Shown here: positions 39,611 through 61,203 of the stretch, piece after piece | How positions within the stretch are numbered: position 1 is the first letter of the stretch | How the letters are laid out: each line of letters begins with the position of its first letter | DNA from: Acidobacteriaceae bacterium | GTDB taxonomy: Bacteria > Acidobacteriota > Terriglobia > Terriglobales > Acidobacteriaceae | Length of the DNA: 64,000 nt | Direction: 5' to 3' | Assembly (NCBI GenBank): GCA_003131315.1 | Contig: PKUV01000154.1 | Span: 1 to 64,000 of the forward strand | The notes under the pieces: model-generated | What the model was told of the DNA's origin: nothing | The model's database searches: none | Seen by the model: only the letters and a program-made list of their open reading frames with translations | Made by a program: the position numbers and the translations under genes

Positions 39611-39638
39611 GCGAGGGCCGGACGCATCCGGCCCTCGC
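39611..39638 (-). terminator. 12-bp perfect hairpin between receptor and LVIVD gene
   Basis: GCGAGGGCCGGA (39611-39622) and TCCGGCCCTCGC (39627-39638) form a perfect 12-bp stem with a four-base loop. It lies just downstream of the receptor stop on the minus strand. No U-tract follows, so it could attenuate rather than end transcription into the LVIVD gene. Confidence 0.6.
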
Positions 39639-45213: not shown

Positions 45214-45257
45214 ATTTGCGCGAGTCAAAGCAGGCGTGGCTTCAGGGAAAGCGGAAA

Positions 45258-45406
45258 ATGGCAATCGCAACGATGAACCCGGCAACCGGAGAGTTGCTCA
45301 AGACCTTCGAACCGCTGTCCGATTCCCAGATCGACGAAAAGATCGGGCGCGCAGGGGCTCGTACGGGATTCGCGAGTTCGCCAATATCAAGACGGTGTGG
45401 GTCGAG
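45258..45406 (+). pseudogene. aldehyde (succinate-semialdehyde-like) dehydrogenase remnant with internal deletion
   Basis: Frame one (45258-45353) reads MAIATMNPATGELLKTFEPL then SDSQIDEKIGRA, the N-terminus of NAD(P)-dependent succinate-semialdehyde-type dehydrogenases. At about 45353-45356 it jumps frame to GSYGIREFANIKTVWVE, the C-terminus of the same family. The ~420-residue middle with the catalytic Cys and Glu is gone. It is therefore a deletion scar of a once complete gene that followed tetR. No product is expected. Confidence 0.75.
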
Positions 45407-45488
45407 GGCGCGAGTTCGTCGAGCCGCCACGTCCGCACAGCGCCTTCCGACCAAACTTTCATTCATCCTTAAAGCCAAGGAACCGATT

Positions 45489-46328
45489 ATGAGAAGGTTT
45501 ATTCTCCATGCACTCGTGGTGGTTGTTATCTGCGGAGTACGGGCCACCCTGGCACAGCCTGCTGCCGCGGACGACAACCAGCAGGCAGTCCTGCAGGCCG
45601 ACCAGACCCTAGTCCAGGCAATTGCAAAAGCGGACAAGAAGGCCGCCGGGGCGCTTCTGGACAAGGATTTCACCTGGACGGACTCCGCGGGCAAGACCCT
45701 GGACAAAGCCGAGGTCCTGCAGGGTCTGCCCACTCCTGCGAGTGGCGATGAAAACGGCGCCGAAGTAAAGGAGCGCACCTACGGGGATGTTGGAGTCGTG
45801 ACCTCGGTCCGCGGACGCGTTCACGTGGTGCGCGTCTGGACGAAGCAGGCGGCGGGATGGCGCGCGCTCATCTATCACGAAGCGACTCTCGCCGAGAAGG
45901 CAGAGCCGCCGAAGCCTGGTCCGGCTGATTGCGAAAATCCCTGCAAGACTTTGCCTTATGCACCCAAGAACGCCGCGGAGCAGGGAATCGTCACTTCGTG
46001 GCAGGCTCTGGAGACAGCCGTCACTCATCATGATTCCGGCGGTTGGGCTCCTCATGTTGCGGACGAGTTCGTCCTGATCAATTCGAACAACGACCATGTG
46101 TACACCAAAGCGGACCGGATGGCGATCCTCGACAAGCAGAAGCAGAGCGGATCTGGTTCGGCGCCGGTGCCTTTGGTTTCGGCGCGCATGTTCGACTTCG
46201 GGGATACCGTGGTGATGACCGCGCAGCACCAGCGCGGAACCGCGAAGCCGATCCACGTTTCGCGTGTCTGGATCAAGCGCGACGGTCAATGGGTGATGGC
46301 TTTCAGCGAGCAGACAGTGGTTCAGTAA
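45489..46328 (+). CDS. exported protein with two tandem SnoaL/DUF4440-like domains (paralogue)
   Basis: A 279-residue protein starting at 45489 (MRRFILHALVVVVICGV) behind AAGGAA, with a signal peptide ending ALAQPAAA. Two NTF2-like domains occupy ~28-135 (QADQTLVQAIAKADKKAAGA) and ~160-277 (WQALETAVTHHDSGGWAPHV ... GQWVMAFSEQT), linked by CENPCKTLPY. The layout and many residues match the protein at 43599, so the two arose by duplication. The frame upstream is the aldehyde dehydrogenase scar and not part of this protein. Confidence 0.8.
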   Translation: MRRFILHALVVVVICGVRATLAQPAAADDNQQAVLQADQTLVQAIAKADKKAAGALLDKDFTWTDSAGKTLDKAEVLQGLPTPASGDENGAEVKERTYGDVGVVTSVRGRVHVVRVWTKQAAGWRALIYHEATLAEKAEPPKPGPADCENPCKTLPYAPKNAAEQGIVTSWQALETAVTHHDSGGWAPHVADEFVLINSNNDHVYTKADRMAILDKQKQSGSGSAPVPLVSARMFDFGDTVVMTAQHQRGTAKPIHVSRVWIKRDGQWVMAFSEQTVVQ

Positions 46329-46340: not shown

Positions 46341-47240
46341 TTATTGGCTGTGCGATCCCACTCCAACGGCCGCGCGTAGCGCGTCGATGACTTCACTGTC
46401 GTTCGCCGCACCCATTCCCAAGTTGACCATCTGCTCGAAGACATGTGCGGCTGCCTTGCCGATTTCTGCCTGGCGTCCCAGTTTCTCGGCCAGATGCACT
46501 CCGTAGAGCGAATCCTTCAGCCTGCCACGTCCAGAGAATGCGACCGCTTGTCCGCGTTTCCCCTCTGCCATCACAGCCGAGTGGCGGATCACGTGGGGAC
46601 TTCCGGTGAAACCATTCGAGAAAGCTTCCGCCGCGACGTGCAGGTCAATGCCCGCGCCTTCCGCCTGAACCATCGCTTCCGCGAGGGCGGCGACTTGGAT
46701 CGCTCCCATAAGGTTGTAGATCAGTTTGAACGCAGTTCCTGCCCCGACTGGTCCGAAATGGAAGACCTTTTTTGAGATCGGCTGGAAGAGCGGACCGGCC
46801 GCGTTGAGATCGGCTTCATGGGCGCCTACGAAGAGCCTGAGATCTCCTGACGCTGCGGCGTCGGGCCGGCCGGCAACCGGGCAATCGATGTAGCGCAGCC
46901 CTTTTGACACGACGATTCCCGCCAGTTCCATCACCCAGTCGTGAGAAAGGGTAGAGCACTCGATGACCAGCGTCTGCGGCGGCAGCTTTGAAGAGAGTGC
47001 ACCTTCAGGTCCCGTCCAAACCAGCCGCGAGGCTTGATCGTCACTGACCGAGGAAAAGATTGCGTCCACGTCTTCCGCAGCGGCACGCGGGCTCGCCGCA
47101 AAATTGGCTCCCCGCTCTTGTAATGGACGAGTCTTTTCCGGGCTGCGGTTGTAGACCGCGACCTTATGACCCGCGCTCAGCAGACGCAAAATCATGCCCT
47201 GTCCCATGTTGCCGGCGCCGAGATAAGCGATCTTTGCCAT
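46341..47240 (-). CDS. NAD(P)-dependent beta-hydroxyacid dehydrogenase (HIBADH family)
   Basis: A 299-residue 3-hydroxyisobutyrate-dehydrogenase-like enzyme. N-terminal YLGAGNMGQGMILRLLSAG (cofactor loop), NRSPEKTR after strand two (Asn-Arg favours NADP), substrate loop IDCPVAGRPDAAASGDLRLF, and the catalytic-lysine helix GAGTAFKLIYNLMGA. It oxidises or reduces a 3-hydroxy acid. It follows the crotonase-type hydrolase gene by 21 bp on the same strand, so it may handle a ring-opened hydroxy or keto acid. Confidence 0.88.
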   Translation of the reverse strand: MAKIAYLGAGNMGQGMILRLLSAGHKVAVYNRSPEKTRPLQERGANFAASPRAAAEDVDAIFSSVSDDQASRLVWTGPEGALSSKLPPQTLVIECSTLSHDWVMELAGIVVSKGLRYIDCPVAGRPDAAASGDLRLFVGAHEADLNAAGPLFQPISKKVFHFGPVGAGTAFKLIYNLMGAIQVAALAEAMVQAEGAGIDLHVAAEAFSNGFTGSPHVIRHSAVMAEGKRGQAVAFSGRGRLKDSLYGVHLAEKLGRQAEIGKAAAHVFEQMVNLGMGAANDSEVIDALRAAVGVGSHSQ

Positions 47241-47261
47241 GGTGTTGCTCCTATCGATTTC

Positions 47262-48014
47262 TTATTGCGCGATGGCCATTCCCTCGAGCGCCAGTCCGTA
47301 CGCCAGGAGGTCATTCATCTGACGACGCAGATGTTCGGTCAGCAGGATGCGCGTATAACGCCGGTTCAGAGCGGGCTGCAACATGAGTTGCCGCGCCAAT
47401 TCCCACGCCCGGGGAAGCAACTTCGGCGCCGGCAAGAGTTCGTTCACTAATCCCATTTGCAGCGCGTCCGTTGCCGAGAGCGTTTGCCCGGTGAGCAGAA
47501 AATAGCGGGCGCGGTTCAGCCCCATGAGCAGGGGGAAAATAACGTGCACACCATCTCCCGGCACCAGTCCTCCCACGAAATGTGCCGAATCTTGAAAGGC
47601 AGCCGAGTCCGTCGCCAGCACGATGTCGCACATGAGCGGCAATTCCGGATGCCGCAACGCGGGGCCATTGACAGCAGCGATCATCGGCACTTCGATATTC
47701 AGCATGTTCATGGTGAAACGCCGCGATTCGCTGCCTAGTTTTCCCCATTGCTCAGCCGATAGTTTTGGCACAGCGCGGTCCGCCGAAGGCGTCACCGCTG
47801 GACCGGAGAATTCCTTTCCGGCGCCGGTCAGAAGGATGACCTGATTCTCGGGGTCTCGCCCGACATCAAGGAACGCTTGTTCCAGTTCCGCGTGGGCCCT
47901 AGGTCCCCAGCGCAAAGAGTCTCCCTCCGTATGCACGGTCATTTCGAGAATGCCGTCCTCGCGCCGCAAGCGAATGGTTTGGAACTTCTTTGCATATTCG
48001 TCAAAAGCTGCCAT
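47262..48014 (-). CDS. crotonase-family hydrolase, 6-oxocamphor-hydrolase-like (retro-Claisen C-C hydrolase)
   Basis: A 250-residue crotonase-fold protein. It is not a standard enoyl-CoA hydratase: the usual glutamate pair and CoA loop are absent. It resembles Rhodococcus 6-oxocamphor hydrolase, with the same opening style (FDEYAKKFQTIRLRREDGIL), AAVNGPALRHPELPLMCDIV, FQDSAHFVGGLVPGDGVHV and RYFLLTGQTLSATDAL. The catalytic residues described for that enzyme, His122, His145, Asp154 and Glu244, are all present at exactly those numbers here. That family hydrolyses a C-C bond of cyclic beta-diketones without CoA. This is the strongest clue that the surrounding genes degrade an alicyclic or terpenoid-like compound. 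The actual substrate is unknown. Confidence 0.8.
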   Translation of the reverse strand: MAAFDEYAKKFQTIRLRREDGILEMTVHTEGDSLRWGPRAHAELEQAFLDVGRDPENQVILLTGAGKEFSGPAVTPSADRAVPKLSAEQWGKLGSESRRFTMNMLNIEVPMIAAVNGPALRHPELPLMCDIVLATDSAAFQDSAHFVGGLVPGDGVHVIFPLLMGLNRARYFLLTGQTLSATDALQMGLVNELLPAPKLLPRAWELARQLMLQPALNRRYTRILLTEHLRRQMNDLLAYGLALEGMAIAQ

Positions 48015-48083: not shown

Positions 48084-49142
48084 TCAGTTCCGCAGAAAAA
48101 TTGTATCTGCCGCTTGCCACGTGAGCCCGACTTGCTCACCACTTCGGCGCAACGCGACCCTGGGGCGTTTTTGCTCTTGCACAATCACCCGATCCCCTAA
48201 CTTGAGGTCAACTGCGTACTCCATCGTCGCGCCCAATTGAGTTGCCTGTCGGATTACCCCCGGCTGAGCATGGGTCGCGTCTGGAGATACAAACTCGATT
48301 TTTTCTGGGCGGACCGCAATCGTCCCAGCACCGAAATCGCTGCTTTCCGCATGGGCTTCGATTTCCAGGCCGCTCTTGCAACGGAATACCTTACGGCCGG
48401 CGACGGAGACGATCGATCCCTCAAAAAAATTTGCCGTGCCGATGAAGCCGGCGACAAATCGAGTTCTTGGGTGGTCGTAAATCTCCTCCGCTGTTCCCAC
48501 TTGCGCGATCCGGCCTCGCTCCAACAACACGATCCGGTCGGCCATGGTCATGGCTTCTTCCTGATCGTGGGTAACGAACAGAGCGGTGACTCCCAGCTCT
48601 CGTTGCAGGCGCCGAATCTCCTCCCGCATTTGCACCCGCAGCTTGGCGTCGAGATTCGAGAGCGGCTCGTCAAACAACAAGAGATCGGGCTTGAGTGCCA
48701 GCACGCGGGCGAGTGCCACCCTCTGCTGCTGGCCGCCAGACAGTTCCCGCGGATATCGCTCTGCATAGGGAGTCAGGCCTACGAGTTCAAGCACGCTTCC
48801 GACGCTCTTGTTCATCGGCGCAGCCTCTACGTGATGGGACTTCAGGCCGAACTCGATATTGGCGCGCACCGTCATGTGCGGAAACAGCGCATAGTTCTGA
48901 AACACCAGCCCCACATTCCGCCGGTGTGGTGGCAGGGGGGTGACGTTCGTATCTTTGATCCAAATCTCGCCCTTTGTCGGTGCCACGAAACCGGCAATCA
49001 TGCGTAGGGTCGTGGTCTTGCCGCATCCCGAGGGCCCGAGCAGAGCCACGAACTCTCCGGCCTCGACCGACAGATCAAAGTCCTTCACGACGGTTGCCGT
49101 GCCGTAAACCTTAGAGAGGTTGCGGAGCGCGAGATACGCCAT
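48084..49142 (-). CDS. ABC transporter ATPase, spermidine/putrescine/iron (PotA-like) type
   Basis: A 352-residue nucleotide-binding subunit: Walker A GPSGCGKTT, Q-loop region FQNYALFPHMTV, signature LSGGQQQRVALARVLALKPD, Walker B LLLFDEPLSNLD, H-loop FVTHDQEEAM, then a C-terminal TOBE-type domain (AVRPEKIEFV). It powers the two permeases encoded directly upstream. Import of a polyamine, iron or another organic cation or acid is typical of this family; specificity rests with the binding protein. Confidence 0.92.
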   Translation of the reverse strand: MAYLALRNLSKVYGTATVVKDFDLSVEAGEFVALLGPSGCGKTTTLRMIAGFVAPTKGEIWIKDTNVTPLPPHRRNVGLVFQNYALFPHMTVRANIEFGLKSHHVEAAPMNKSVGSVLELVGLTPYAERYPRELSGGQQQRVALARVLALKPDLLLFDEPLSNLDAKLRVQMREEIRRLQRELGVTALFVTHDQEEAMTMADRIVLLERGRIAQVGTAEEIYDHPRTRFVAGFIGTANFFEGSIVSVAGRKVFRCKSGLEIEAHAESSDFGAGTIAVRPEKIEFVSPDATHAQPGVIRQATQLGATMEYAVDLKLGDRVIVQEQKRPRVALRRSGEQVGLTWQAADTIFLRN

Positions 49143-49158
49143 TAGCGGGCTCTTCTCC

Positions 49159-49935
49159 TCATGAGTGCCGGACCGACAGGAACCGCGTGTAAACCGGAAT
49201 TCCGATGGCGAGCCATGCCACGATCAGACAGGTAGAGATCGCCGAGATGGTCGGGTCGCTCGAGTACTGCACATAGTTGAAAATCCGGATGGGGAGCGTC
49301 TGCAACGCTGGCCCCGCCAGCAACAACGTCACCACCAGCTCATCGAATGACATGATGAACGCGAACACCGCCCCGGCCAGAATGCCCGGCAGGATCAGCG
49401 GCAGGGTGATCCGGAAAAACGTGCGCTGCCAGCTTGCACCGAGGTTCTGCGCGGCCTCCTCCAGTGAGGGATCGAACTCCGCCGCGCTGGCCATCGCCAG
49501 GCGAACCACGAAGGGTGTTATGACCAAGGTATGCGCCGCCACCAGCCCAGTGAAAGTTTGCGCCAGACCGATCCTTTGGAATGCCACCAGCAAAGCTAGC
49601 GCCAGCACGATCGCCGGAAATAGAATGGGCGACAGCAGCATCGTCGAAATCGCGCTCTTACCGCGTATTCCGTGACGCGCTAGCGCCAGCGCGCTTCCGG
49701 TCCCAATGATTGTCGCCAGCGTCGTACTTGTCAGGCTCAACATCGCACTGATCCGCAAGGAGTCCCGGAGTTCGGGCGTGCTCCAGAAGTGGACGAACCA
49801 CTTCAAGGTGAAGCCTTGGGGAGGGAAGATAGGATACGCACTGGTCCCGAACGCGGTCGCGATCACGACCACGATCGGCGCCAAAAGATAGAGCAGGATA
49901 ACCCCGTTGACCAGCCGAAACGCACCCTTCATCAA
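49159..49935 (-). CDS. ABC transporter permease (PotC-like)
   Basis: A 258-residue membrane protein with about six helices and the inner-membrane EAA loop (LEEAAQNLGASWQRTFFRIT LP-type), which docks the ATPase. It overlaps the preceding permease gene by 4 bp. It is the second permease of a PotABCD-type importer. Confidence 0.9.
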   Translation of the reverse strand: MMKGAFRLVNGVILLYLLAPIVVVIATAFGTSAYPIFPPQGFTLKWFVHFWSTPELRDSLRISAMLSLTSTTLATIIGTGSALALARHGIRGKSAISTMLLSPILFPAIVLALALLVAFQRIGLAQTFTGLVAAHTLVITPFVVRLAMASAAEFDPSLEEAAQNLGASWQRTFFRITLPLILPGILAGAVFAFIMSFDELVVTLLLAGPALQTLPIRIFNYVQYSSDPTISAISTCLIVAWLAIGIPVYTRFLSVRHS

Positions 49936-50786
49936 GCCGTCCGCCTCCGCTCAGTCAGTGTCAGGGACGCCACCATCAGGATCAGGATGACCGCCAGCAT
50001 GATGAAGGCGACGGCCGCTCCAAACGGCCAATCCAGGAGCGCCATCGCCTGCTGGTAGATAATGGTCGACATCACCTTGACCCTTGCACCCGCAATCAGC
50101 GTGGGCGTGACGAATGCGCTCAGCGCTCCGGTAAATACCAGCACGCAACCGGAGATTATTCCGGGCAGCGACAACGGCAAAGTAATGCGGAGGAAGATGC
50201 GAGTCCCACGCGCTCCCAGGTTCCGGGCCGCTTCGTAAAGCGACGGATTGATGTTAAGCAAAGCTGTGTCGAGCGCCAGTACCATGAAAGGCAGCAACAC
50301 TTCTACCAAAGCAATAATCACGCCCGTGGTGTTGTACATCAGGCGCAGCGGGCGATTGATCGCATGCAGCGCCATCAGTGTGCGATTGATGAATCCGTTA
50401 TTGCCGAGCAGGATCATCCAGCCGAAAGTCCGGACTACCGTGCTGGTCAGGAGCGGCATCAGGATGCAGAAGTACAGCAGGCTGCGTTTCAGCCCTCGGG
50501 ATCGAGAGAGCGCGTAAGCCAGCGGGAAGCCGAGCACCAGGCACAGGGCAGTGACTTCGGCTCCGAGCAGCAGAGTTCCCCAGAGAACCTCCCGGTAAAA
50601 GGGATCGAAGAGGAACTTCGTGTAGTTGGATATTTGCCAGGTATCGATGATTCCGCTTCCAGCTTCGTAGGCATCAAAGCTGATCCTGGCCAGCAGGAGG
50701 AGCGGTCCCAGCATCAAGAGCCCGATGAGCACGAGATTCGGGCCCAGCAGGAACCATGGCTTGAGCGCCTCGCCTCTTTCTCTCAT
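49932..50786 (-). CDS. ABC transporter permease (PotB-like)
   Basis: A 284-residue permease with six predicted helices (WFLLGPNLVLIGLLMLGPLL, LLYFCILMPLLTSTVVRTFG) and the EAA loop YEAARNLGARGTRIFLRITL. The start overlaps the binding-protein stop (ATGA), giving translational coupling within the transporter operon. Confidence 0.9.
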   Translation of the reverse strand: MRERGEALKPWFLLGPNLVLIGLLMLGPLLLLARISFDAYEAGSGIIDTWQISNYTKFLFDPFYREVLWGTLLLGAEVTALCLVLGFPLAYALSRSRGLKRSLLYFCILMPLLTSTVVRTFGWMILLGNNGFINRTLMALHAINRPLRLMYNTTGVIIALVEVLLPFMVLALDTALLNINPSLYEAARNLGARGTRIFLRITLPLSLPGIISGCVLVFTGALSAFVTPTLIAGARVKVMSTIIYQQAMALLDWPFGAAVAFIMLAVILILMVASLTLTERRRTA

Positions 50787-51832
50787 TGGGTAATTTCCCG
50801 ATTCCAGCGGTCAATCCATTGCGGACGAAGCTCATTTGCCTTTTTCCAATCCGGGCGCGTCAACGTCTTGATCATCTGAGGCCCGTTCGGGATTTTCTTC
50901 GCAGTGTCGGCATCGAGCACTGTTTTTGAGTTGGTCGGCGAGAGAAAAGTGTACTTGGCATTGGCGGCCTGAGCCTCCCGGCTCAATGCGAAGTCGACAT
51001 ACTTTTGAGCGGCGTCGAGATGCTTGGTCCCTTTGGCGATCACCAGTCCACCTTCTTGCATGATGCCGCCTTCTTTCGGGATCGCCCACGCTATCGGCAC
51101 GCCTTTGCTGGCGAGCAGCAGAGCACGGTCGGAGGTCCATGGCGCCATCACGATGTCGCCTTGCGTAAACAACTGCGCCAATTGTGCGTGCTGCTCGGGA
51201 AAAGTGAGAATGCTGGGCTTGAGTCGCTTCATCGCGGCAAAGGCCGGATCGACCTTGTCCATGGTCGCCCCCTCCGTCTTCAGCAGCATGAGGAAGAAGC
51301 TCAGCCCAGTGGCGCTGTCGAGATTGTTGATGGCGATCCGGCCTGCGTACTTCTTGTCCCAGAAATCCTTGTAGGAATCGGGCGCCGGTTTCACCTGCTG
51401 ACTGTTGTAGGCGATCACGGCTGCATCGAACATGAATTTGCAGAAGGCATCGTCCGCCACCCGGAACTCGGGATAAAGTTCAGCCAGATGCGGCACCGTC
51501 TTGGGCGACACGGGTTGAACCAGACCTTCTGCCGTGGCCTGGGCCGCACCCACCTCGTCCATCATGAACACGTCAACCCTGACGTCGTTCTTCTGCGCTC
51601 GCATCAGCGCCATACTCTCGAACACCAGCTTCTGGACGAGCTTGACCTTGATGTCGGGATGCGCCTTCTCGAACGGCTCGACGACAGACTTACGCCATCC
51701 GTCTTCGAACGATCCGCCGTAGTTGGTAACGACCAGTTCGGTTTGAGCGCTGGCAAAGGTTGTGCATGCGGCCAGGACCATCCCGGCCAGAAGGCCGAAG
51801 GCGATTCGTTTGTGTAGACGCATCCCGTTCAT
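50783..51832 (-). CDS. ABC transporter extracellular solute-binding protein (PotD-like)
   Basis: A 349-residue exported binding protein (alternative ATG at 51823, MRLHKR). Signal peptide ends TTFASAQ; the mature part starts TELVVTNYGGSFEDGWRKSV, typical of the spermidine/putrescine and iron-binding cluster. Later motifs are YAGRIAINNLDSATGLSFF and QGDIVMAPWTSDRALLLASK. Acidic residues typical of PotD amine binding cannot be confirmed by eye. In this context it may bind a pathway substrate or product rather than a polyamine. Confidence 0.88.
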   Translation of the reverse strand: MNGMRLHKRIAFGLLAGMVLAACTTFASAQTELVVTNYGGSFEDGWRKSVVEPFEKAHPDIKVKLVQKLVFESMALMRAQKNDVRVDVFMMDEVGAAQATAEGLVQPVSPKTVPHLAELYPEFRVADDAFCKFMFDAAVIAYNSQQVKPAPDSYKDFWDKKYAGRIAINNLDSATGLSFFLMLLKTEGATMDKVDPAFAAMKRLKPSILTFPEQHAQLAQLFTQGDIVMAPWTSDRALLLASKGVPIAWAIPKEGGIMQEGGLVIAKGTKHLDAAQKYVDFALSREAQAANAKYTFLSPTNSKTVLDADTAKKIPNGPQMIKTLTRPDWKKANELRPQWIDRWNREITQ

Positions 51833-51981: not shown

Positions 51982-53682
51982 CTAGGTTCGTTGACTGCGT
52001 ACCGACTCTAGGTGATCGTCAAAAAGAGTCAGCGGCGGATAAGCTTCCGGATCTGTCAGAACGTCAATGACAGTTGTCTCGTTAGCCGCGAGTGCTTCGC
52101 GTACTGCACCCAGATATTCGCCGGGCCGCTTCACTGTAATGCCGCGGCAGCCGCAGGCCCGCGCGATGGCCGCATGATCGACCGGAGCGAAGACGCAAGC
52201 ACTGGTGTGCCGTCCGAACTTCACATCTTCAGCGTCCTTCTGATAAGCAAGCACGCCATTGTTGAGAACGGTTACGACGATCGAGATGCCGTTGCGGTGA
52301 GCCGTCTCCAGCTCCGACCACACGTGCCCGAAACCGCCGTCGCCGGTGATGCACAGTACGGGGCTGGCGGGTCGCGCAACCTTCGCCCCCAACGCCATCG
52401 GCAATCCCCAACCCAGCCCTGCGAGACCGCGGGGAGTGAGGAACCGCATCCCGGGCGCCAGCGATTGCAGATAACATGCCATCCAGACCGTAGAGTAGCT
52501 CGCGTCCGCGACGACGATCGTATCCGGTGTCAGGACCTGCTGCAGGTCACCCATCAACCGTTCCGGACGGATAGGGACAGCCTCGGAACGAAGTAAGGCC
52601 GCGATTTCCCGGGCATTGCACGCGCGTGCTTCCGCGATGGCTCGCTCCAGTTCCGGTTTTGCCTTGCAGCGCCCGCCGAGCCGTTCGGTGAGCGCCGCCA
52701 ATGTCAGCTTCGCATCCCCCACCAGTCGCAAGGCCTCGTAGTTGCGTCCAACCTCCACGCCGTCGATGTCGAGATGAATATACTTTGCGCCGGCAGGGAG
52801 GAGCGTCCAGGAATCGGTGCCGTTCTGCGCCGTGCGAGTGCCGGCCAGGAAGACCAGGTCTGCCCGCTCGATCAGCGGACGGAAATGGCGGCTTGGCGAA
52901 AGGCGGCCCAGAACATTTCCGCCAACTCCCAGGGAAAGCGGATGACGTTCGTCCACCGCGCCCTTTCCCATCACCGTGGTCATCACGGGCAGATGCGCTT
53001 TCCGCTGCAGTGCCGCCAACTCGGCGGTGGCACCGGAGAGATGAACTCCTCCGCCCGAGAAAATCAAAGGATGTTTCGCTGCGGCGATCCATTCCGCCGC
53101 TTGGTCAATTCGCGCGGGGTCGGCCAGTACGCGGTCGAGGGGGAAACGTCCCAGGCATGTCTGGCGGCCAAATACGCTGGTACTCTCGTTCAACAAATCG
53201 GCCGGCAGCAGCAGGACAGCTGGCCCCGGTCTTCCGCCGGTCGCGTTGGCGAAGGCCATGTCGACATAATCTTCGACTCGGTCGGGTTCCGTGACCCGGC
53301 GGATCCACTTGGCGCAGGCCCGGAACAAGTCGATGTGGTCGATTTCCTGGAAGGCATTGCGGTCGGTGGCCGGCCGGTTGACTTCCTGCACCAGCGCGAC
53401 GACCGGTACGGAAGATTTAAATGCTTCCGCCAGAGGAGGCACGAGCAAGGTCGCCGCCGGGCCGTTTTGCGCCGTCACGACAGCGGCCTTGCCCGAAACT
53501 CGGGCAAAGCCATCGGCCATGGCCCCACCCGCATTTTCCGTCCGATAGGTGAACTGCCGCAGACCCAGGTCTTCCGCCGCTAACAACACCGCGGATGGCA
53601 GGCTTTGAGAAAAGACGGTTTCCACGCCGTGACGCGCAAGCGAGGCGGCAATCACCTGCGAAACAGTTTTCTCATGGCTCAT
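51982..53682 (-). CDS. thiamine-diphosphate-dependent enzyme (acetolactate synthase/benzoylformate decarboxylase-like)
   Basis: A 566-residue ThDP enzyme starting at 53682 (MSHEKTVSQVIAASLARHGV); the extra 37 residues of the longer frame have no family counterpart. Catalytic glutamate in FTYRTENAGGAMADGFAR, central domain LIFSGGGVHLSG, and ThDP-magnesium motif GDGGFGHVWSELETAHRNGI followed by NNGVLAYQK. Such enzymes decarboxylate 2-keto acids or cleave alpha-diketones; the ThDP-dependent cyclohexane-1,2-dione hydrolase is a relative. A true acetolactate synthase would usually have an IlvH partner, and none is here. The promoter at 53803-53830 carries the TetR-type box. Confidence 0.88.
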   Translation of the reverse strand: MSHEKTVSQVIAASLARHGVETVFSQSLPSAVLLAAEDLGLRQFTYRTENAGGAMADGFARVSGKAAVVTAQNGPAATLLVPPLAEAFKSSVPVVALVQEVNRPATDRNAFQEIDHIDLFRACAKWIRRVTEPDRVEDYVDMAFANATGGRPGPAVLLLPADLLNESTSVFGRQTCLGRFPLDRVLADPARIDQAAEWIAAAKHPLIFSGGGVHLSGATAELAALQRKAHLPVMTTVMGKGAVDERHPLSLGVGGNVLGRLSPSRHFRPLIERADLVFLAGTRTAQNGTDSWTLLPAGAKYIHLDIDGVEVGRNYEALRLVGDAKLTLAALTERLGGRCKAKPELERAIAEARACNAREIAALLRSEAVPIRPERLMGDLQQVLTPDTIVVADASYSTVWMACYLQSLAPGMRFLTPRGLAGLGWGLPMALGAKVARPASPVLCITGDGGFGHVWSELETAHRNGISIVVTVLNNGVLAYQKDAEDVKFGRHTSACVFAPVDHAAIARACGCRGITVKRPGEYLGAVREALAANETTVIDVLTDPEAYPPLTLFDDHLESVRSQRT

Positions 53683-53802
53683 GATTTGGATCCTTTTGTT
53701 CGACTGAGAGATGGCCCCGGAAGAAATGTCATGTGTAAGAGATGTCAAGCGCCGCGGATAATCCTTGGCAATGGAAATCGGTACCAGCCGCATGGTGCGT
53801 TA

Positions 53803-53889: not shown

Positions 53890-56151
53890 CTAAGCACTTA
53901 GATTGTTTCGCGACAGTGGCAGCTCTCGGACCCGTTTGCCGGTCGCCGCGAATATGGCGTTGCAAAACGCCGGGATAAATGGAGGCACCCCAGGCTCGCC
54001 CACGCCCGCCGGCGGAGCGCTGCTGTCGACAATGTACACATTGGTGTGAAGCGGGGCTTCGTCGATCCGAGCCACCGGATAGTCATCGAAGTTCGACTGT
54101 TCCACCGCGCCGTCCTTCACCGTAATTTCTCCAGTGCGGGCAATGCTGGTTCCGAAGACGGCCGCTCCTTCGAACTGCGCCCGCGTCGACTCCGGGTTCA
54201 CGACCAGGCCCGCATCCACCGCTGTATCCACGCGCGGGATCCGGATCTCGCCCTTGTCGCTGACTTCGACCTGGACTACCGAGGCGGCGTAGGTCAGGAA
54301 GCTGCGATGGACCGCAATACCCCATCCGATACCCTTGCGCGGTTTTCGATTTCTCCAGCCCGACTTTTCCGCAGCGATTTCCGCTACCCGGCGTAAGCGG
54401 CCGGTATCGAAGGGATAGGCTTCGTACGACGCGTCGTAGTTCGGATAGTTTGTATCCTTCAGGTTCAGAATGCGCGGCGATCCAATTAAATCAAGCAAGT
54501 ACTCGAGAGGATCGCGACCCGCCGCATGCGCCAGCTCGTCGGTGAAGGATTGCACCGCGAACGCGTGATAAATATTGGCCACCGCGCGCAGCCAACCGAT
54601 GCGTACGGCCGGTTTTGCCGGACCATTTTCCACACGCAGGTTGGGGATATCGAACGGCACGTCGGTCCAGCCTTGTTGCAGGTGGCGCGGCGCGCCATAA
54701 ACCGCGGTCACATCGAAGATGGAAGTGATGGGCGTGAAGGCCGATCGTTGCAGCCACGCGGTCGGCTTGCCATTCGCGTCCAAGGCCGCTTTCATGTACA
54801 TCGCGGCCACGGCGTTGTAGTAGTCGAACTGGATGTCATCTTCGCGGCTCCAGACCACTTTCACTGGACGGCCTACTTTCTTTGAAAGCACGGCCGCCTC
54901 GGCCACAAAGTCTGCTTTTGACTTCCGCCCAAAGCCGCCACCCAGCAGCGTCACGTGGCAAGTCACATTCTCTTTCGCAATTCCCACCGCCTTGGCGACG
55001 GTCTCCTGCACTCCCTGTGGATCCTGCGTCGGCGCCCAGATGGTTACTTTCCCGTCACGGAAATCGGCCAGGGCGACCGGAGGTTCCATCGAGGCATGGG
55101 CCAGCAAAGGGACGTAGTAGTCCGCCTCCACCACTTTTCCACCTTTGGCGAACGCGGCCTCCACATCACCTTCGTTGCGGATCAGCTTTCCCGGCTTGCG
55201 CGCCGTCTCCTGCAGCTCTTTCTTGAACTGGTCGGAATTGTAGCTTTCGTTCGCTCCGTGGTCCCAAGTGATCTGCAGTTTCCGCCGGCCTTGCATGGCT
55301 GCCCAGGTGTTGTCGGCGATTACCGCGACTCCGCCCAGTGGCTGAAATGCGGGAGGAGGCTGGAAGGGGTCGATGGCCACTGTCTGACGGACCCCGGTCA
55401 CCTTCAACGCGGCCTTGTCGTCATAAGATTTCACCTTGCCGCCGAAGACTGGCGGACGCGCGATCGACGCATAGACCATGCCGTCTACCCGCGCGTCCAT
55501 GCCGAAGCCGGCTTTCCCGGTGCAGAGATCCTCGAGGTCATAGCTCGGCATCCCCTTGCCGACGTAGCGCCACTCGCCCCTGGTCTTGAACTGCAGCTCT
55601 TCTTTCTTCGGCACCGGCAACTTGGAGGCAGCCGCGGCCAGTTCGCCGTATCCTGCTTTGCGACCGGTTTTCGGATGCACTACTGTATGCAGATCGGTGT
55701 GGCACTCTGACGCTGGAACACTCCATTGCTGCGCCGCAGCCTGGACCAACATCAGCCGGGCCGTGGCTCCGGCCTCGCGCATTGCCGGATAGAACTCCCG
55801 GATGGAGTGCGACCCATCGGTGTTTTGCGAGCCGTAGCGCGCATCGCCAATTGCCTGCTCGATTCTGACTTTTTTCCAGTCGGCATCCAATTCGTCCGCT
55901 ACGATCAGCGGCAAAGAGGTGCGGCTGGTCGTCCCCATCTCGGAACGATGAGCGACCAGGTAAACTATCCCGTCCGTGTTTACTCCTACGAACAGGTTGG
56001 CATGAAGGGTAGCGGCGTCCGCATGCGTGCCCCTAGAAGCGGTCTCGGCCCGCAGCGATTCCGGATAAAACCGCGCCGCGATCACCAGAGCTCCCGCCGA
56101 CATCAGTCCTTGCAGCACGCCTCGCCGGCTGACATTGACGATCTCGATCAT
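53890..56151 (-). CDS. Tat-exported molybdenum hydroxylase large subunit (xanthine dehydrogenase/IorB family)
   Basis: A 753-residue molybdopterin-binding subunit with a Tat-like N-terminus ([19 protein letters not shown]). Mo-cofactor segments are visible ([58 protein letters not shown]). The catalytic glutamate lies in [10 protein letters not shown] near the C-terminus. The family (isoquinoline 1-oxidoreductase, periplasmic aldehyde dehydrogenases) hydroxylates N-heterocycles or oxidises aldehydes using water. It overlaps the 2Fe-2S subunit gene by 4 bp. No FAD subunit is present, so electrons should leave to a cytochrome, for which a pentaheme protein is encoded nearby. Confidence 0.92.
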
Positions 56152-56603
56152 GGCTTTGCCTCCGCCGCAGCTTTGATGGCCGCACGAATTCGCTGATAGG
56201 TTCCGCAGCGGCAGATGTTGCCGGCCATCGCTGCCTCGATGTCTTGGTCGGTCGGATTAGGTTTCTTGCTCAACAGCGCGGCAGCTTGCATGATCTGTCC
56301 CGACTGACAGTAACCGCATTGCGGAACATTGACCTGCATCCAGGCGCGCTGCACGGGGTGCAGTCCAGTTTTATTCAGATCTTCAATCGTTCGGATCTCG
56401 CTCCCGGCCGCGGCGCTCATCGGTGTGACGCACGACCGGATGGCATCTCCATTTTGGTGGACGGTGCAAGCTCCGCACAATGCCATGCCACAGCCGAACT
56501 TGGTTCCGGTGAGTCCCAACACGTCCCGCAGATACCACAGCAGCGGCATTTCGGGATCGCCGTCAAAGGAACGATCCGTGCCATTCACCCTCAACCGAAT
56601 CAT
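56148..56603 (-). CDS. 2Fe-2S subunit of the molybdenum hydroxylase (IorA/CoxS-type)
   Basis: A ~151-residue subunit (start [13 protein letters not shown] at 56603; an ATG 12 bp upstream is also open). The plant-type cluster ligands are in [18 protein letters not shown] and a later C. The alpha-helical second cluster is in [17 protein letters not shown] and [12 protein letters not shown]. It transfers electrons from the Mo subunit encoded immediately downstream. It has no signal of its own and probably travels with the Tat-tagged large subunit. Confidence 0.93.
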
Positions 56604-56611
56604 GTTTCCCT

Positions 56612-58279
56612 TCAAGCTCTCTTTGCCACCTCTTCAATGCTCGTGCCGAAATCCTTCAGCATCACGGTGGCGGCGTTGCGCCCGGGCGCGCCCGTGACCG
56701 AGCCTCCAGGATGAGTCGTCGCGCCGGTTTGATATAGGCCAGGAATGGGCATGCGATGCTGAGCCCAGCCGGGCATGGGACGCATGGCGCCCGCCTGCGA
56801 CGGCTCCATGCCTCCCGCGTGATAGCTGCCGTGCCAGTTGTGCGGATTCATGCGCTCGAGATCGAGCGGGCTCTCGACAAAGCACGCAAGCAATTTATCC
56901 GCGGTAAGATTCGGTGCGAAACGGCGTGCGTAGTTCAGTTGCGCCTTCGAAACCTGGTCTTTGATGTTGTCCCAATGTTGCGGCCCCTCTTTCAGGTTGT
57001 AAAGATGATAGCCAATCACGCGTACCGTGTGCATGCCCGCGGGCGCGCGTGTGGGATCGGCCATCGTGGCGCAGCTGATTTCGAGAGGCGGTTCTTGATC
57101 GTCGAGCTTGCCGGCCGCGAACTCGTACGCGTACCGCAGGACCCGCTCGGAGCTTGGCATGATGCAGGTTTCCACTGGCGATATGGTTCCGCCGGCTACA
57201 GGAAACTTCGGCGGCTCCGTGGCAGCATAGTGCGAGACGAGGGCTGATATCTCTCCTTCCCAGGTATCCACTCCGAAGAGAAAGTCTTCCCCCCAGAGCT
57301 CGCGAGGCGCCATATCCACGAGTTGTTTGATGTGGATGGTGGAAAGCACCGCCTTCTTCGCGCGATAGGAACTGCCATCGCCGCACTCGACTCCGGTGCA
57401 TTTGCCACCCTCCACAATGAGCCGCTGGACCGGTTGGTTGACCAGGATCACGCCGTTGTGGGCCTCGATGAAACGAGCGAGTGCCTGCGTCAGCGCACCC
57501 GATCCGCCTTTCGGAATAAAGCGTGGAGGCCGGCGGACGGCACTGTATGCGAGCCGGCCGGTCATCGGATACTGCGGCGGTTGGTGGGTGAACGGACTGC
57601 CCAGCAGAAAAGCGCGGCAGTGATCGTCTTCAAAGTTGTCGCGAACGATCTCCCACTGCGACATGGCCACGCGGCGCTGCCACAACTTGCCCTGTGGAAG
57701 CTCGGCCAGCCGCTCATTCACCGGCTTGTCAAAGCCGATGGGCGTAAACATCGCCGACTCAAAGATGGCTTTGACCGTGGCGTATTGCAGGCCAAGTTTC
57801 CGGTAGGCCTCGGCATCTTTTCTCGAGAATTTGGCGAACTCCGCAATCGTGCGTTCGCGGTCGCGCCACTCGGTAAGATAGCTACCGTCCGGAAACGGCA
57901 TGTGAATGACCGGATCGGGTTCGATGTATTCGAGTCCGTAGTCGGCGAGATTGAGTTCGCGATTGCGCATCAGCGGATTCTGCAGAATGAAGCTGTGCGC
58001 TGCCGAGCAGGTGTCGTGATAGAAGCCGCGCAACGTTAACTCCTCGGTTCTGACTCCTCCCCCGACGAGCGGCCGTCCTTCCAGCACCAGGCAGCGATAG
58101 CCCGCTTTTGCCAGGTATGCGGTGGCGATCAGGCTATTGTGTCCGGCGCCCGCGACGACCACGTCAAAACGCTCGGTTGGAACCGCGGTCGGTTGCTGCT
58201 GTCCGCGCGCGAAAGGTTGCAGAGCCAGAGGAGCAAGCGCGGCTCCCTTTACAAATCCGCGTCGCGTCATGGCGCTCAT
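56612..58279 (-). CDS. Tat-exported phytoene-dehydrogenase-like FAD oxidoreductase (copy 1)
   Basis: A 555-residue flavoprotein starting at 58279 ([20 protein letters not shown]), a twin-arginine signal behind GGAGGAAT. FAD motif [31 protein letters not shown], and the C-terminal FAD loop [20 protein letters not shown]. This is the CrtI/PYROXD2-type amine-oxidase superfamily, acting on hydrophobic C-C or C-N bonds. The divergent gene at 58509 encodes a close paralogue with an almost identical signal. Its promoter (-35 at 58337-58342, -10 at 58313-58318) is overlapped by the shared 19-bp operator. It heads the operon with the Mo hydroxylase. Confidence 0.9.
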
Positions 58280-58302
58280 CGGATTCCTCCAGAAGAGATA
58301 GT

Positions 58303-58342
58303 TGGTCGGACAGCTATACCAATAGCGGGCGAGCTGTGTCAA
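58303..58342 (-). promoter_or_regulatory. promoter of flavoprotein copy 1 with 19-bp operator
   Basis: Minus strand: TTGACA (58337-58342), 18-bp spacer, TATAGC (58313-58318) inside the operator TGGTATAGCTGTCCGACCA (58303-58321). It matches the operator at 58406 at 16 of 19 positions. Confidence 0.65.
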
Positions 58343-58384
58343 GTAGTACCTATATCACAATGGGTTGCAGGAACGAAAAATTCC

Positions 58385-58424
58385 TTGACACCCAATCTTG
58401 GACAGTGGTACAGCTGTCTAACCA
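58385..58424 (+). promoter_or_regulatory. promoter of flavoprotein copy 2 with 19-bp operator
   Basis: TTGACA (58385-58390), 17-bp spacer, GTACAG-type -10 inside TGGTACAGCTGTCTAACCA (58406-58424). The inverted halves TGGT/ACCA with the AGCT core suggest a dimeric regulator acting as a repressor. Confidence 0.65.
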
Positions 58425-58508
58425 TTTTGATTCCGCCTCAAATACGCAGCTCTTGGCTGCGTGTTTCGGAGAGAACAACATCCGCGACCGTGGTTCCGAG
58501 GAAGACAG

Positions 58509-60185
58509 ATGAGCGCGATGACACGACGCGGGTTTGTGAAAGGTGCGGCCCTGGCTCCCCTTGCTCTTCAGCCTCTCGCCTGGGGGCAACAGACTCCGGC
58601 CCCAGTTCCCAGCGAACGCTTTGACATCGTCGTTGCCGGCGCCGGACACAACAGTCTGATCACCACAGCTTATCTGGCGAAGGCTGGCTATCGCTGCCTG
58701 GTGCTGGAAGGACGGCCCATCCTCGGCGGCGGAGTAAAAACCGCGGAGATTTTGCTGGCCGGCTTTCAGCACGATACCTGTTCCTCCGCGCACACGGCGA
58801 TCTTCGACAATCCGTTGATGCGCGACGACGAACTGAAACTTGGCGACTACGGTCTCGAGTACATCCATCCCGATCCCGTCTTTCACATGCCGTTTCCCGA
58901 TGGCAGCCACATCACGCAGTGGCGCGATCCGCGGCGCACTGCGGCCGAGTTCGGCAAGTTTTCGAAAAAGGACGAAGCGGCTTATCTGCGGATGATGGAA
59001 GAGTACGAATCGGTGAAGCCGATTCTCGAGGCCGCCACGTTCCTGCCCATCGGTTTCGGCAAGCCGGTAAATGAGCGGCTGGCGGAGCATCCCAGGGGCA
59101 GACTATGGCAGCGCCGTCTTGCCATGTCAGCCTGGGAAATCATTCGCGACAATTTTGAAGACGACCACTCGCGCGCCTTCATGCTGGCGTCGCCGTGGGG
59201 AAACCTGCCGCCGGAGAATCCCATGACCGGGCGATCGGCTTACTCCATCTTCCATCAACAGCGTTACAGCCGGCCGCTTCCCAAAGGCGGCTCGGGCAAA
59301 TTGACCGAAGCGCTGGCGCGCTTCATCGAGGCTCACGGCGGAGTGATCCTCGCCAACAAACCGGTCGCGCGGCTCATCATTGAAAACCGCCGCTGCGCCG
59401 GGGTGGAATGCGTCGACGGCAGTTCATTCCGGGCACAGAAAGCTGTGGTCTCCACCATCCATATCAAGCAACTGGTCGACATGGCGCCGCGACAGTTGTG
59501 GGGACAGGACTTCATTGACGGCGTGGAAACGTGGCAAGCGGAATGTGCGCTCGTTGTTACCAATCTCGCCACCACCGAACCACCCAAGTATTCATTCGAA
59601 GGCGGCACGATTTCTCCGGTGCACTCGGGGATTATGCCGACCGCCGACCGCGCCCTGCGTTTTGGCTACGACTTTGCGCGCAGCGCCGTCAACGTGGAAG
59701 ACCCGCCGCTGCATATCATATGTTGCACGGTGGCAGACCCAACGCGCGCGCCTGCAGGTATGCACACGGTAAAGATTCTAGGATACCAACCCTACGACCT
59801 GAAGGAAGGCGCCCAGCATTGGGACCAGATCAAGAACCAGGTTGCAGACGCCAACCTGAATTACCTGCGCCGCTTTTCGCCCAATCTGACGGACGATAAG
59901 ATTCTCGCGAAAATTGTCGACAGCCCGCTCGACTTCGAGCGCATGAATCCGCACAACTGGCACGGCAGTTGTCACGGCGGCGCCTGGGGCCCGTCGCAGT
60001 CGGGACCGCTGCGACCCATGGCGGGATGGGCGCAACATCGCATGCCGATCCCCAGCCTGTATCAAACTGGCGCGACCACGCATCCTGGAGGTTCGGTAAC
60101 GGGCGCTCCCGGGCGGAACGCTGCCATGGTGATACTCAAAGACTTGGGGACCAGCATCGAAGAAGTGGTGAAGAGGAAAACGTAG
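58509..60185 (+). CDS. Tat-exported phytoene-dehydrogenase-like FAD oxidoreductase (copy 2)
   Basis: A 558-residue paralogue of the protein at 56612. The ATG at 58509 ([20 protein letters not shown]) follows GAGGAAG. FAD motif [34 protein letters not shown], and C-terminal [20 protein letters not shown] are all conserved, so it should be active. The two copies differ mainly in the substrate-side central region (residues ~200-400), which suggests related but distinct substrates. It is followed 19 bp later by the pentaheme cytochrome gene, a possible electron acceptor. Confidence 0.9.
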   Translation: MSAMTRRGFVKGAALAPLALQPLAWGQQTPAPVPSERFDIVVAGAGHNSLITTAYLAKAGYRCLVLEGRPILGGGVKTAEILLAGFQHDTCSSAHTAIFDNPLMRDDELKLGDYGLEYIHPDPVFHMPFPDGSHITQWRDPRRTAAEFGKFSKKDEAAYLRMMEEYESVKPILEAATFLPIGFGKPVNERLAEHPRGRLWQRRLAMSAWEIIRDNFEDDHSRAFMLASPWGNLPPENPMTGRSAYSIFHQQRYSRPLPKGGSGKLTEALARFIEAHGGVILANKPVARLIIENRRCAGVECVDGSSFRAQKAVVSTIHIKQLVDMAPRQLWGQDFIDGVETWQAECALVVTNLATTEPPKYSFEGGTISPVHSGIMPTADRALRFGYDFARSAVNVEDPPLHIICCTVADPTRAPAGMHTVKILGYQPYDLKEGAQHWDQIKNQVADANLNYLRRFSPNLTDDKILAKIVDSPLDFERMNPHNWHGSCHGGAWGPSQSGPLRPMAGWAQHRMPIPSLYQTGATTHPGGSVTGAPGRNAAMVILKDLGTSIEEVVKRKT

Positions 60186-60203
60186 TCGTAGTCGATATCA
60201 ACT

Positions 60204-60785
60204 TTGGCAGGCAAACCGGTGAAACCAAGACACGGAAGTCTCGTCGCTTTGTTGTTATTCACGATCGCATCACTCCTGGTTTTTTCAGTCGCAGTCTCAT
60301 CTCAGACTGTGAATCAGGAAGTCGCGAAGAATCCCATGCACCCGGCAGCTCCCGAGCAGCCCATCCCCTACAGCCACAAAAAGCATCTGGCCCTGGGACT
60401 CGAATGTCAGATATGCCACGGCGGGCCGGATCCCGGGAGCCAGATGACCTTTCCACCAACGACGGCCTGCATGACGTGCCATGCCTCGGTAGCCACGAAC
60501 AAGCCTGCGATTCGGAAGCTGACGGAGTTTGCCAAGTCCGGACAACCGATTCCCTGGGTGCGCGTTTATAAGGTTCTCCCCGGGGTGAACTGGACGCACC
60601 GAAAACATCTGGAGGCGGGAGTGCACTGCGAAACCTGTCATGGTGAGGTTGCCCAGATGGATCGCATGTCTGAGGTCACGAGCGTGATCACCATGTATGT
60701 TTGCCTGGATTGCCACCAGAAGAGTAAGGCCAACACCACCTGCGAGGCCTGCCATTCATGGCCGAGAGCGGAAGATGCGCGATAG
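60204..60785 (+). CDS. exported pentaheme c-type cytochrome (class III/c7-like)
   Basis: A ~193-residue protein, TTG start at 60204 or GTG at 60219 (MKPRHGSLVALLLFTIASLL). After the signal peptide it has five CxxCH heme sites (residues ~68-72, 89-93, 142-146, 167-171, 180-184: CQICH, CMTCH, CETCH, CLDCH, CEACH). Two H-x-K-H-L stretches (YSHKKHL, THRKHL) provide distal ligands as in cytochromes c3/c7. It sits directly behind a Tat-exported flavoprotein and near a Mo hydroxylase lacking a FAD subunit, so it probably accepts electrons from them in the periplasm. Confidence 0.88.
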   Translation: MAGKPVKPRHGSLVALLLFTIASLLVFSVAVSSQTVNQEVAKNPMHPAAPEQPIPYSHKKHLALGLECQICHGGPDPGSQMTFPPTTACMTCHASVATNKPAIRKLTEFAKSGQPIPWVRVYKVLPGVNWTHRKHLEAGVHCETCHGEVAQMDRMSEVTSVITMYVCLDCHQKSKANTTCEACHSWPRAEDAR

Positions 60786-61203
60786 CCCGGCCGCGTCTGC
60801 GGTGGAAGTCGAGACCGGCACAGGCCGTCCTCCATTATTTATTTGCGTGACGCGTGTAACAAAGGGCTTCTTCGTGCAGCTAAGGAGTACCGACGTACGG
60901 AAACGCGATACAGTTAGGTTATCGGGGTGGTCACTTTAGACTCTCAAGAGCCATCTGGCCATCTGGTAAATTGCGGGATCGCAATCAAGTTCCGAGTTTC
61001 GCCAAATAAGTTGCAAAGTGTTGCAGCTTTCTGGATTTTCCACAAAATAAAGTGCTTGACGGGATTGCATTCTTCCGGCTTCCCTTGTTAAGATCACTCC
61101 CGATCTGTACGTGGGTTGGTTCGCGGAAGTCTCCCATCCTCCCCCTCGATTTCCGCGGAAGATAGCAAAATAAAAAATTGTTGCTCGTCTCCAGGAGAGA
61201 CCC
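60786..61203 (+). promoter_or_regulatory. intergenic region with promoter and leader hairpin for the anchor-D protein
   Basis: No gene is seen in the first ~270 bp. A promoter is plausible with TTGCAT (61065-61070), 17 bp, TTAAGA (61088-61093); an alternative -35, TTGACG, lies at 61056. Downstream the inverted repeat CGCGGAA/TTCCGCG (61122-61128 and 61151-61157) could form a leader hairpin. CAGGAGAG precedes the ATG at 61204. Confidence 0.45.

Follow-up and report, generated by a model that had tools for sequence, protein, structure and literature searches.

To which acceptor do flavoproteins deliver their electrons once they have been exported from the cytoplasm? This question is raised by a locus of an Acidobacteriaceae bacterium (assembly GCA_003131315.1, contig PKUV01000154.1), of which a stretch of 64,000 nucleotides, the window, was analysed. 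At 53890-60785, the initial annotation had listed five contiguous genes, including those of three redox enzymes with twin-arginine translocation (Tat) signals and of an exported five-heme cytochrome, and had considered the cytochrome as the electron outlet common to all these enzymes. All five genes were found at these positions (Table 1). They encode two flavoproteins, FadA and FadB, the two subunits IorA and IorB of a molybdenum (Mo) hydroxylase, and the pentaheme cytochrome, named PHC. Tat motifs are visible in FadB, FadA and IorB, and PHC possesses five CXXCH motifs together with an N-terminal hydrophobic stretch, either a Sec signal or an anchor. The genes adjoin each other as claimed, but they build up two divergent units instead of a single one: the minus strand carries FadB-IorA-IorB, whose genes overlap by 4 bp, and the plus strand FadA-PHC, separated by 18 bp. 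We consider it likely that FadA and FadB pass their electrons to PHC and, through it, to the respiratory chain, with PHC acting as an outlet derived from ActA, a component of alternative complex III.

Co-occurrence of Tat signals and PHC at FadA loci

The relatives of FadA were sampled mostly from metagenome-assembled genomes of Terriglobia/Acidobacteria, the source assembly of the window having a size of 6.0 Mb. A scan of genome contigs delivered 38 FadA loci, to which two loci from a sample of the phylum and the window were added and from which one fragment was removed, giving a total of 40 loci and 59 copies of FadA. Rows that were sub-stretches, duplicates or remoter paralogues (L001-L008, L047-L052 and L059) had been dropped before the counts, the paralogues of the window's own genome on contigs C54 and C194 fell below the 300-bit limit, and the fragment L046 has no row. 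A Tat motif, called by eye and pattern and not with SignalP, occurs in 35 of the 59 FadA copies, one of the copies devoid of it being truncated at the 5' end. With respect to loci, 24 associate a Tat-bearing copy with PHC, two have a Tat-bearing copy without a multiheme open reading frame (ORF), two (L017 and L057) stop short of the downstream region and were not judged, and 12 lack a visible Tat-bearing copy. Two of these 12 are incomplete: L042, which has PHC, is truncated on the 5' side, where a Tat motif would lie, and L045 on the 3' side.

PHC lies directly downstream of a FadA copy in 24 of the 26 judged Tat-bearing loci, with 22-251 bp between alignment ends, whereas none of the ten judged loci with exclusively Tat-less copies contains PHC, or any ORF with at least two CXXCH motifs, in the DNA available per locus. 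Judging by their titles, nine of these ten loci are alphaproteobacterial and one is actinobacterial. The Tat-less copies start at the FAD-binding strand (e.g., [17 protein letters not shown]). In a 61-row FadA tree, the most divergent ingroup rows, L057 and L058, are both Tat-bearing, the latter with PHC, and Tat-less copies appear in at least two places, the alphaproteobacterial ones being nested among acidobacterial sequences. The simplest reading would be an ancestral enzyme with both Tat signal and PHC, followed by loss of the signal and a transfer out of the Acidobacteriota.

A few observations weigh against a strict link between FadA and PHC. No multiheme ORF accompanies the Tat-bearing copies of the loci L016 and L021 in the DNA available, one PHC in L012 follows a Tat-less FadA copy, and a Tat-less copy is also present in 10 of the 28 Tat-bearing loci. 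The proposed model leaves these Tat-less copies unexplained; candidates are a cytoplasmic isoenzyme, or a partner which rides out with the Tat-bearing copy, as the GMC enzymes do with their hitchhiker subunit. Since the loci with only Tat-less copies belong nearly to one clade, the Tat/PHC contrast also amounts to about one or two independent events. The comparative evidence in favour of a flavoprotein-cytochrome link nevertheless appears strong, and the gene pairing exceeds what is expected from chance.

The same data bear on the idea that FadA and FadB are periplasmic oxidases using oxygen, PHC being adjacent for another purpose. Besides the missing PHC at L016 and L021, this idea can draw on the FAO superfamily, in which some Tat-signalled enzymes lacking a neighbouring cytochrome may function as oxidases of the periplasm, and good reactivity with oxygen was seen for Tat-less relatives (PMC12224317). 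It is difficult to reconcile with an adjacency of 24 out of 26 and with the association of PHC with other dehydrogenase classes described below, and is regarded as unlikely.

The cytochrome PHC as a relative of ActA

The CXXCH motifs of PHC are located at residues 68, 89, 142, 167 and 180, and Pfam assigns the protein to the Cytochrome_C7/class III domains. Its top NCBIfam model is QrcA; the candidate assignment of PHC as the cytochrome of the QrcA-type menaquinone reductase was discarded, with a score of 65 bits against a curated cut-off of 180. The closest relative in the PDB is ActA of alternative complex III (8k9e, phmmer 9.7e-28). No ActB or ActC gene adjoins PHC in the window, and the act clusters of this genome, with their ActA-like genes, are found on contigs C180 and C133. 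By its sequence, PHC is thus an ActA paralogue sited outside any act operon. In an alignment including ActA from the same genome, the five CXXCH motifs, His 58, 61, 132 and 135, and Met 90, 155 and 164 are all invariant. ActA consists of a linear wire of five hemes, all bis-His ligated save heme I (His/Met), and has a membrane helix at its N-terminus (PMC5928083). PHC holds the residues for this heme-ligand set, and the same ligation is predicted. The structure model brings no help to this view: it is poor (pLDDT 68, pTM 0.49) and, even though its three Foldseek matches with E < 0.001 are all ActA chains, root-mean-square deviations of 14-17 A make it too weak for use. We read PHC as an electron-outlet subunit probably derived from ActA.

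The distribution of PHC relatives extends beyond FadA, to neighbours that are dehydrogenases of other sugar, alcohol or amine kinds. Of the 200 genomes of the order, three have PHC at 1e-40, i.e., the two genomes with FadA and a third one (G162), in which it is located 16 bp downstream of a Tat-signalled homologue of the spermidine dehydrogenase SpdH (6.5e-115 to 7d9i), the pair being surrounded by aminotransferase and aldehyde dehydrogenase genes. At 1e-30, a PHC profile finds matches in 222 of 396 genomes of the acidobacterial phylum, many of which are presumably of the act type. Neighbourhoods were read for the best 34 places and, in part, for lower ranks (7 of ranks 37-47, plus G002), which comprise 7 act clusters and 1 place without clear partner. 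Among the best 34 places, 11 have ActB or ActC adjoining and 23 are orphan, the latter consisting of 2 with FadA, 13 with a GMC enzyme and a gluconate-2-dehydrogenase subunit 3, 5 with pyrroloquinoline quinone (PQQ) dehydrogenases, and 3 without clear partner. All 13 subunit 3 proteins beside GMC and PHC exhibit an RRxF motif, i.e., that of a Tat hitchhiker. Four of the PHCs of the PQQ group are flanked by two PQQ dehydrogenases, and the fifth (L102) is two genes away from one. In L116, L117, L121 and L122, the first of the two PQQ dehydrogenase genes enclosing the PHC relative bears a Tat motif.

The partner classes result from Pfam searches on two GMC, two subunit 3 and three PQQ proteins and, for the rest, from tblastn or family searches. 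Several orphan-PHC loci are orthologous among related genomes, so that independent pairings are fewer than those counted, and three orphan places (L101, L104 and L111) end within about 400 bp downstream, leaving room for an act gene on that side. Each of the 13 genomes counted has 2-13 GMC matches, and each of five genomes 13-21 PQQ-family rows, some genes giving several rows. Because such matches are few among thousands of genes, chance adjacency can be estimated at about a per cent or less. A search of the window's own genome with PF05199 (GMC) gave no match.

In a quick PHC tree of 137 columns, with SH-aLRT support only, the 20 act-linked ActAs fall on one side of a branch (92) and the 26 FadA-linked PHCs are grouped together (97), so that the orphan PHC relatives appear, on this short alignment, to group apart from act-linked ActA. 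This tree is of importance for the alternative that PHC is a spare ActA which swaps into alternative complex III and neighbours FadA by history. Its kinship to ActA and the presence of an act cluster on contig C180 of this genome would agree with such a role; the separation of the orphan PHCs from the 20 act-linked ActAs and the lack of ActB or ActC at all 23 orphan places of the best 34 (three of which end just downstream) render it very improbable.

The identity of the partners also matters for the direction of the electron flow, which we infer to run from flavin to heme. In the opposite case, PHC would donate electrons to exported flavoproteins working as terminal reductases of the methacrylate reductase or UrdA type. 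Periplasmic flavin reductases also pair an exported flavoprotein with a multiheme cytochrome, e.g., the methacrylate reductase with its tetraheme cytochrome (PMC4427408). However, the SpdH-like, GMC and PQQ partners of the PHC relatives belong to dehydrogenase or oxidase families, the superfamily of FadA is mostly oxidising, and the importer and catabolic genes of the neighbourhood fit the use of a substrate, so that little credit is given to a reverse flow.

On a broader scale, Acidobacteriota might have turned ActA, which belongs to a quinol-oxidising respiratory complex, into a general, detachable outlet serving four classes of periplasmic dehydrogenases (COG1233, SpdH-like, GMC-hitchhiker and PQQ), possibly also IorAB, so that the oxidation of carbon compounds would directly feed the high-potential end of the chain; for this generalization, acceptance and doubt seem to us evenly balanced. 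Orphan ActA-like cytochromes could be used as a marker for recognising unknown periplasmic dehydrogenases of soil acidobacteria and for testing their electron path.

The flavoproteins FadA and FadB

The likely start codons, ATG 58509 for FadA and ATG 58279 for FadB, are internal to longer ORFs. The two proteins share 70% identity and the Tat motif TRRGFVKG ([20 protein letters not shown]). Both match Pfam Amino_oxidase (6e-14 to 6e-16), and their top NCBIfam model is CrtO, with 265 and 249 bits, i.e., about a quarter of the cut-off of 1000; crtI_fam gives 81 and 103 bits for a cut-off of 238. The structure model of FadA (pLDDT 85) has the carotenoid desaturases 4rep and 4dgk as first structural matches. 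NicA2 occupies rank 9 in one structural search, with Foldseek, and is absent among the 50 rows of a second one. A plasmid search for near FadA relatives yielded identities of only 28.6-36.4% among the best 15 of 29 records, none of them informative.

Owing to this kinship with carotenoid desaturases and CrtO, in both fold and family, FadA and FadB could be imagined to act on membrane isoprenoids or carotenoids from the outer face of the membrane. The scores far under the CrtO and crtI_fam cut-offs, and the annotated conserved neighbours, which are importers, carboxylate symporters, thiamine pyrophosphate (TPP) enzymes and 2-oxoacid enzymes and not isoprenoid genes, make such a function improbable.

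Two of the 200 genomes from the order contain FadA at 1e-60, and three of the 396 from the phylum at 1e-100, the window's own genome being counted in both cases; FadA is therefore an accessory trait. Proteins of COG1233 are widespread and usually annotated as phytoene desaturases. A Tat-bearing branch with a fixed cytochrome partner would offer a testable redox role for members of this group.

The molybdenum hydroxylase IorAB

IorB consists of MoCoBD_1 and MoCoBD_2 domains and carries the Tat motif SRRGVLQG, and IorA, made of Fer2 and Fer2_2 domains, has no Tat motif, as is usual for the small subunit of enzymes of the IorAB class. The closest PDB match of IorB is the aldehyde dehydrogenase large subunit 8gy3, which we take to come from acetic acid bacteria, over nearly the full length (1.3e-80). 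No FAD-subunit domain was detected among the Pfam-scanned ORFs of the window, a set excluding the ABC ATPase, searched with NCBIfam only, and the repeat protein at 61178. The enzyme accordingly combines separate [2Fe-2S] and Mo subunits, a Tat motif on the Mo subunit, and no FAD subunit. The initial annotation was right in noticing this missing subunit, which is however ordinary for IorAB-type enzymes and leaves no gap to be filled.

An IorB gene is located within 5 kb of a FadA copy in 13 of the 24 PHC loci, and the order FadA-PHC-IorA-IorB on one strand is encountered in 9 of them; in L022, IorB comes after PHC. The IorBs near FadA loci are 27 to 65% identical to that of the window, and therefore different subfamilies are involved. 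The window's own genome contains IorB-like genes at 9 places (15 rows, grouped by hand), so that the 13 nearby IorBs exceed the background density. Conversely, 11 of the 24 PHC loci lack IorB in that 5-kb range around a FadA copy, which counts against an outlet shared with IorAB. The nearest IorB paralogue of the own genome (64% identical, contig C162) has no adjoining ORF with CXXCH in the 13 kb read, and adjoins an ABC transporter which appears by eye to be of the molybdate type.

These data leave a tentative but substantial place, somewhat short of an even chance, for the view that FadA and FadB use PHC whereas IorAB delivers its electrons to a separate, unlinked cytochrome c, the neighbourhood reflecting a common pathway instead of a common outlet. 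The PHC loci devoid of a nearby IorB, the surroundings of the C162 paralogue and the position of IorAB and PHC in opposite units of the window all favour it. The location of PHC between FadA and IorA-IorB in the nine one-strand loci, the succession found in L022, and the 13 nearby IorBs, well over the density of 9 places per 6.0-Mb genome, point in the other direction. An outlet shared by IorAB is only suggested, and is plausible as a guess. The common outlet initially proposed can thus be retained as likely for the flavoproteins, from the adjacency at 24 of 26 loci and from the orphan relatives found beside SpdH-like, GMC and PQQ enzymes; for the Mo enzyme it goes as far as a suggestion.

A possible pathway and its catabolic surroundings

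In the proposed mechanism, FadA and FadB would fold with FAD in the cytoplasm before export by the Tat system and would oxidise a small organic substrate outside the cytoplasmic membrane. The reduced flavin would give its electrons to PHC, and the ActA-descended pentaheme wire would lead them towards the respiratory chain, with a soluble cytochrome c, an ActE-like cytochrome or an oxidase as acceptor of PHC, which would make the flavin half-reaction independent of both oxygen and the quinone pool. IorAB would probably perform a second oxidation in the same compartment, e.g., of an aldehyde to an acid, and the neighbouring importer would bring the product into the cytoplasm for degradation. A sequence from flavin-dependent formation of an aldehyde to Mo-dependent formation of an acid has its analogue in the oxidative fermentation of acetic acid bacteria; it is a guess, and rather a doubtful one.

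The minus-strand run of genes extends past IorB through genes for a TPP enzyme, an ABC importer, a crotonase and a 3-hydroxyisobutyrate-dehydrogenase-like (HIBADH-like) protein, successive genes being -4 to 149 bp apart. The seven downstream minus-strand genes also lie near FadA-PHC in the related loci L030 and L032 (71-85% identical), and the conserved unit exceeds the five-gene finding. An 8-mer comparison for an operator common to the FadA upstream regions found none.

Table 1. Position of the genes and of the divergent region discussed in the text, with the basis of their assignment.
Feature	Position	Strand	Basis or remark
FadA, Tat-signalled CrtO/COG1233-like flavoprotein	58509..60185	+	ATG start, TRRGFVKG, GAGHNS FAD-binding motif, fold model
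PHC, orphan ActA-like pentaheme cytochrome	60204..60785	+	5 CXXCH, four more invariant His, phmmer to ActA 8k9e
FadB, Tat-signalled FadA paralogue, 70% identical	56612..58279	-	ORF, family models, alignment
IorA, [2Fe-2S] subunit of Mo hydroxylase	56148..56615	-	Pfam/NCBIfam
IorB, Tat-signalled molybdopterin subunit, FAD subunit not adjacent	53890..56151	-	Pfam, match to 8gy3
Divergent region, FadB/FadA	58280..58508	.	229 bp
TPP-dependent enzyme, PRK06112 acetolactate-synthase-like	51982..53793	-	879 bits, cut-off 673; 75-79% in L030/L032
ABC importer substrate-binding protein (2-aminoethylphosphonate/polyamine type)	50783..51832	-	below model cut-offs
ABC importer permeases (49932-50786 and 49159-49935) and ATPase (48084-49142)	48084..50786	-	kept in L030/L032
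Crotonase-like (47262-48014) and HIBADH-like (46341-47240)	46341..48014	-	kept in L030/L032

Depending on the lineage, the transport neighbours of FadA are an ABC importer, a DctA/SDF symporter or TctC receptors, and the enzyme neighbours a TPP enzyme or an E1/E2 2-oxoacid dehydrogenase, with SSADH-like, HIBADH-like and DddP-like M24 proteins; the window adds an altronate/galactarate-dehydratase-like gene. These neighbours point only to a class of substrate, a small molecule, probably with a carboxyl group, e.g., a sugar acid, or a precursor of it.

In L013-L015, L017-L019 and L023-L027, a conserved operon of varying completeness, corresponding to a catabolic pathway, contains genes for GntR, HIBADH-like, E1 alpha/beta, DddP-like M24, E2, DctA, Tat-less FadA, Tat-bearing FadA, PHC and IorAB. 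At 28840-35766, the window harbours SDF symporter, 2-hydroxyacid dehydrogenase, creatininase-family, GFO/IDH, GntR and altronate/galactarate-dehydratase-like genes. Since this block recurs near FadA-PHC in L043/L059 (68-87% identical), the window might contain an island of some 30 kb devoted to sugar-acid catabolism.

Other ORFs of the window deserve mention. At 38023-39627 (minus strand), a 534-residue protein with a Tat motif has no Pfam match at 1e-5, a relative of it showing a weak LVIVD repeat. Among the 200 genomes of the order, it occurs in exactly the two which have FadA, the copy of G095 being on another contig than FadA, and occurs near FadA with 70-77% identity in L012-L014, L017-L019, L026, L027, L030 and L032; it may represent a fourth exported component of the pathway. 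The ORF at 45201-46328 (plus strand) matches, over residues 15 to 70 approximately, the N-terminal region of the SSADH-like genes at related FadA loci, its remainder being DUF4440, and could be what is left of an aldehyde dehydrogenase gene, fused to a second ORF. About 400 bp past PHC begins a large repeat protein (61178-64000, plus strand, continued into L063), with an N-terminal hydrophobic stretch and repeats that look immunoglobulin-like by eye, which runs several kb beyond the window.

Comparison with known systems

Akram et al. predicted cytochrome-using dehydrogenases of the FAO superfamily from a Tat signal and an adjacent cytochrome c, with supporting kinetics, and proposed that these two signs might also be useful for further families of bacterial flavoproteins (PMC12224317). 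FadA-PHC looks like such a further case, with Tat motifs on FadA and FadB and an adjacent gene for an exported c-type cytochrome. NicA2 and Pnao, with CycN, similarly associate a Tat-signalled flavoprotein of the amine-oxidase superfamily with an adjacent exported cytochrome c, and the NicA2/CycN tree also contains Tat-less relatives without cytochrome. FadA, however, is nearest to the CrtO/CrtI (COG1233) branch, and PHC is a pentaheme ActA paralogue, whereas each CytC in the models of that paper has one heme (PMC12224317). The localization of a phytoene-dehydrogenase-like enzyme in the periplasm, initially called unusual, is so for COG1233 in the open-licence literature, in which the matches listed include neither such a periplasmic enzyme nor an orphan ActA-like cytochrome with dehydrogenases; it is less so for the amine-oxidase fold at large, since NicA2 and Pnao are predicted there (PMC12224317).

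The flavoprotein pair itself has a counterpart in the limonene dehydrogenase CtmAB, two COG1233-like flavoproteins both needed for the oxidation of a small molecule, which differ from FadA and FadB by a lower identity to each other (27%) and by their use of the ferredoxin CtmE and the reductase CtmF instead of a cytochrome (PMC4109377). Paired COG1233-like flavoproteins can therefore act on small molecules. Exported flavin dehydrogenases with a heme outlet are also exemplified by the FAD-glucose dehydrogenase, an alpha-beta-gamma enzyme exported by Tat via a hitchhiker subunit and completed by a triheme subunit (PMC6719666), and by SpdH (7d9i), reported to accept cytochrome c (PMC12564564). 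Both belong to flavoprotein families other than that of FadA, and the acidobacterial relatives encountered in this survey adjoin an ActA-like pentaheme cytochrome.

The IorAB types, i.e., isoquinoline 1-oxidoreductase, 8gy3 and the deoxyribose dehydrogenase of P. simiae, the last one accompanied by a cytochrome c and suspected to be periplasmic (PMC6365646), resemble the IorAB of the window in their two-subunit Mo/[2Fe-2S] organization, the lack of a FAD subunit, the Tat signal on the large subunit and, in some of them, a nearby cytochrome; in the window, this cytochrome is PHC, in a position common to the flavoproteins. As for PHC, it shares with ActA (6f0k, 6lod, 8k9e) the five CXXCH motifs and four further His, all of which align, and the N-terminal hydrophobic stretch, and differs from it by the lack of ActB and ActC at its side, by its separate group in the tree and by its dehydrogenase neighbours. 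The principle is thus already known, and what appears new is the combination of a COG1233 enzyme predicted in the periplasm with a recruited, ActA-derived pentaheme cytochrome spanning several classes of dehydrogenases.

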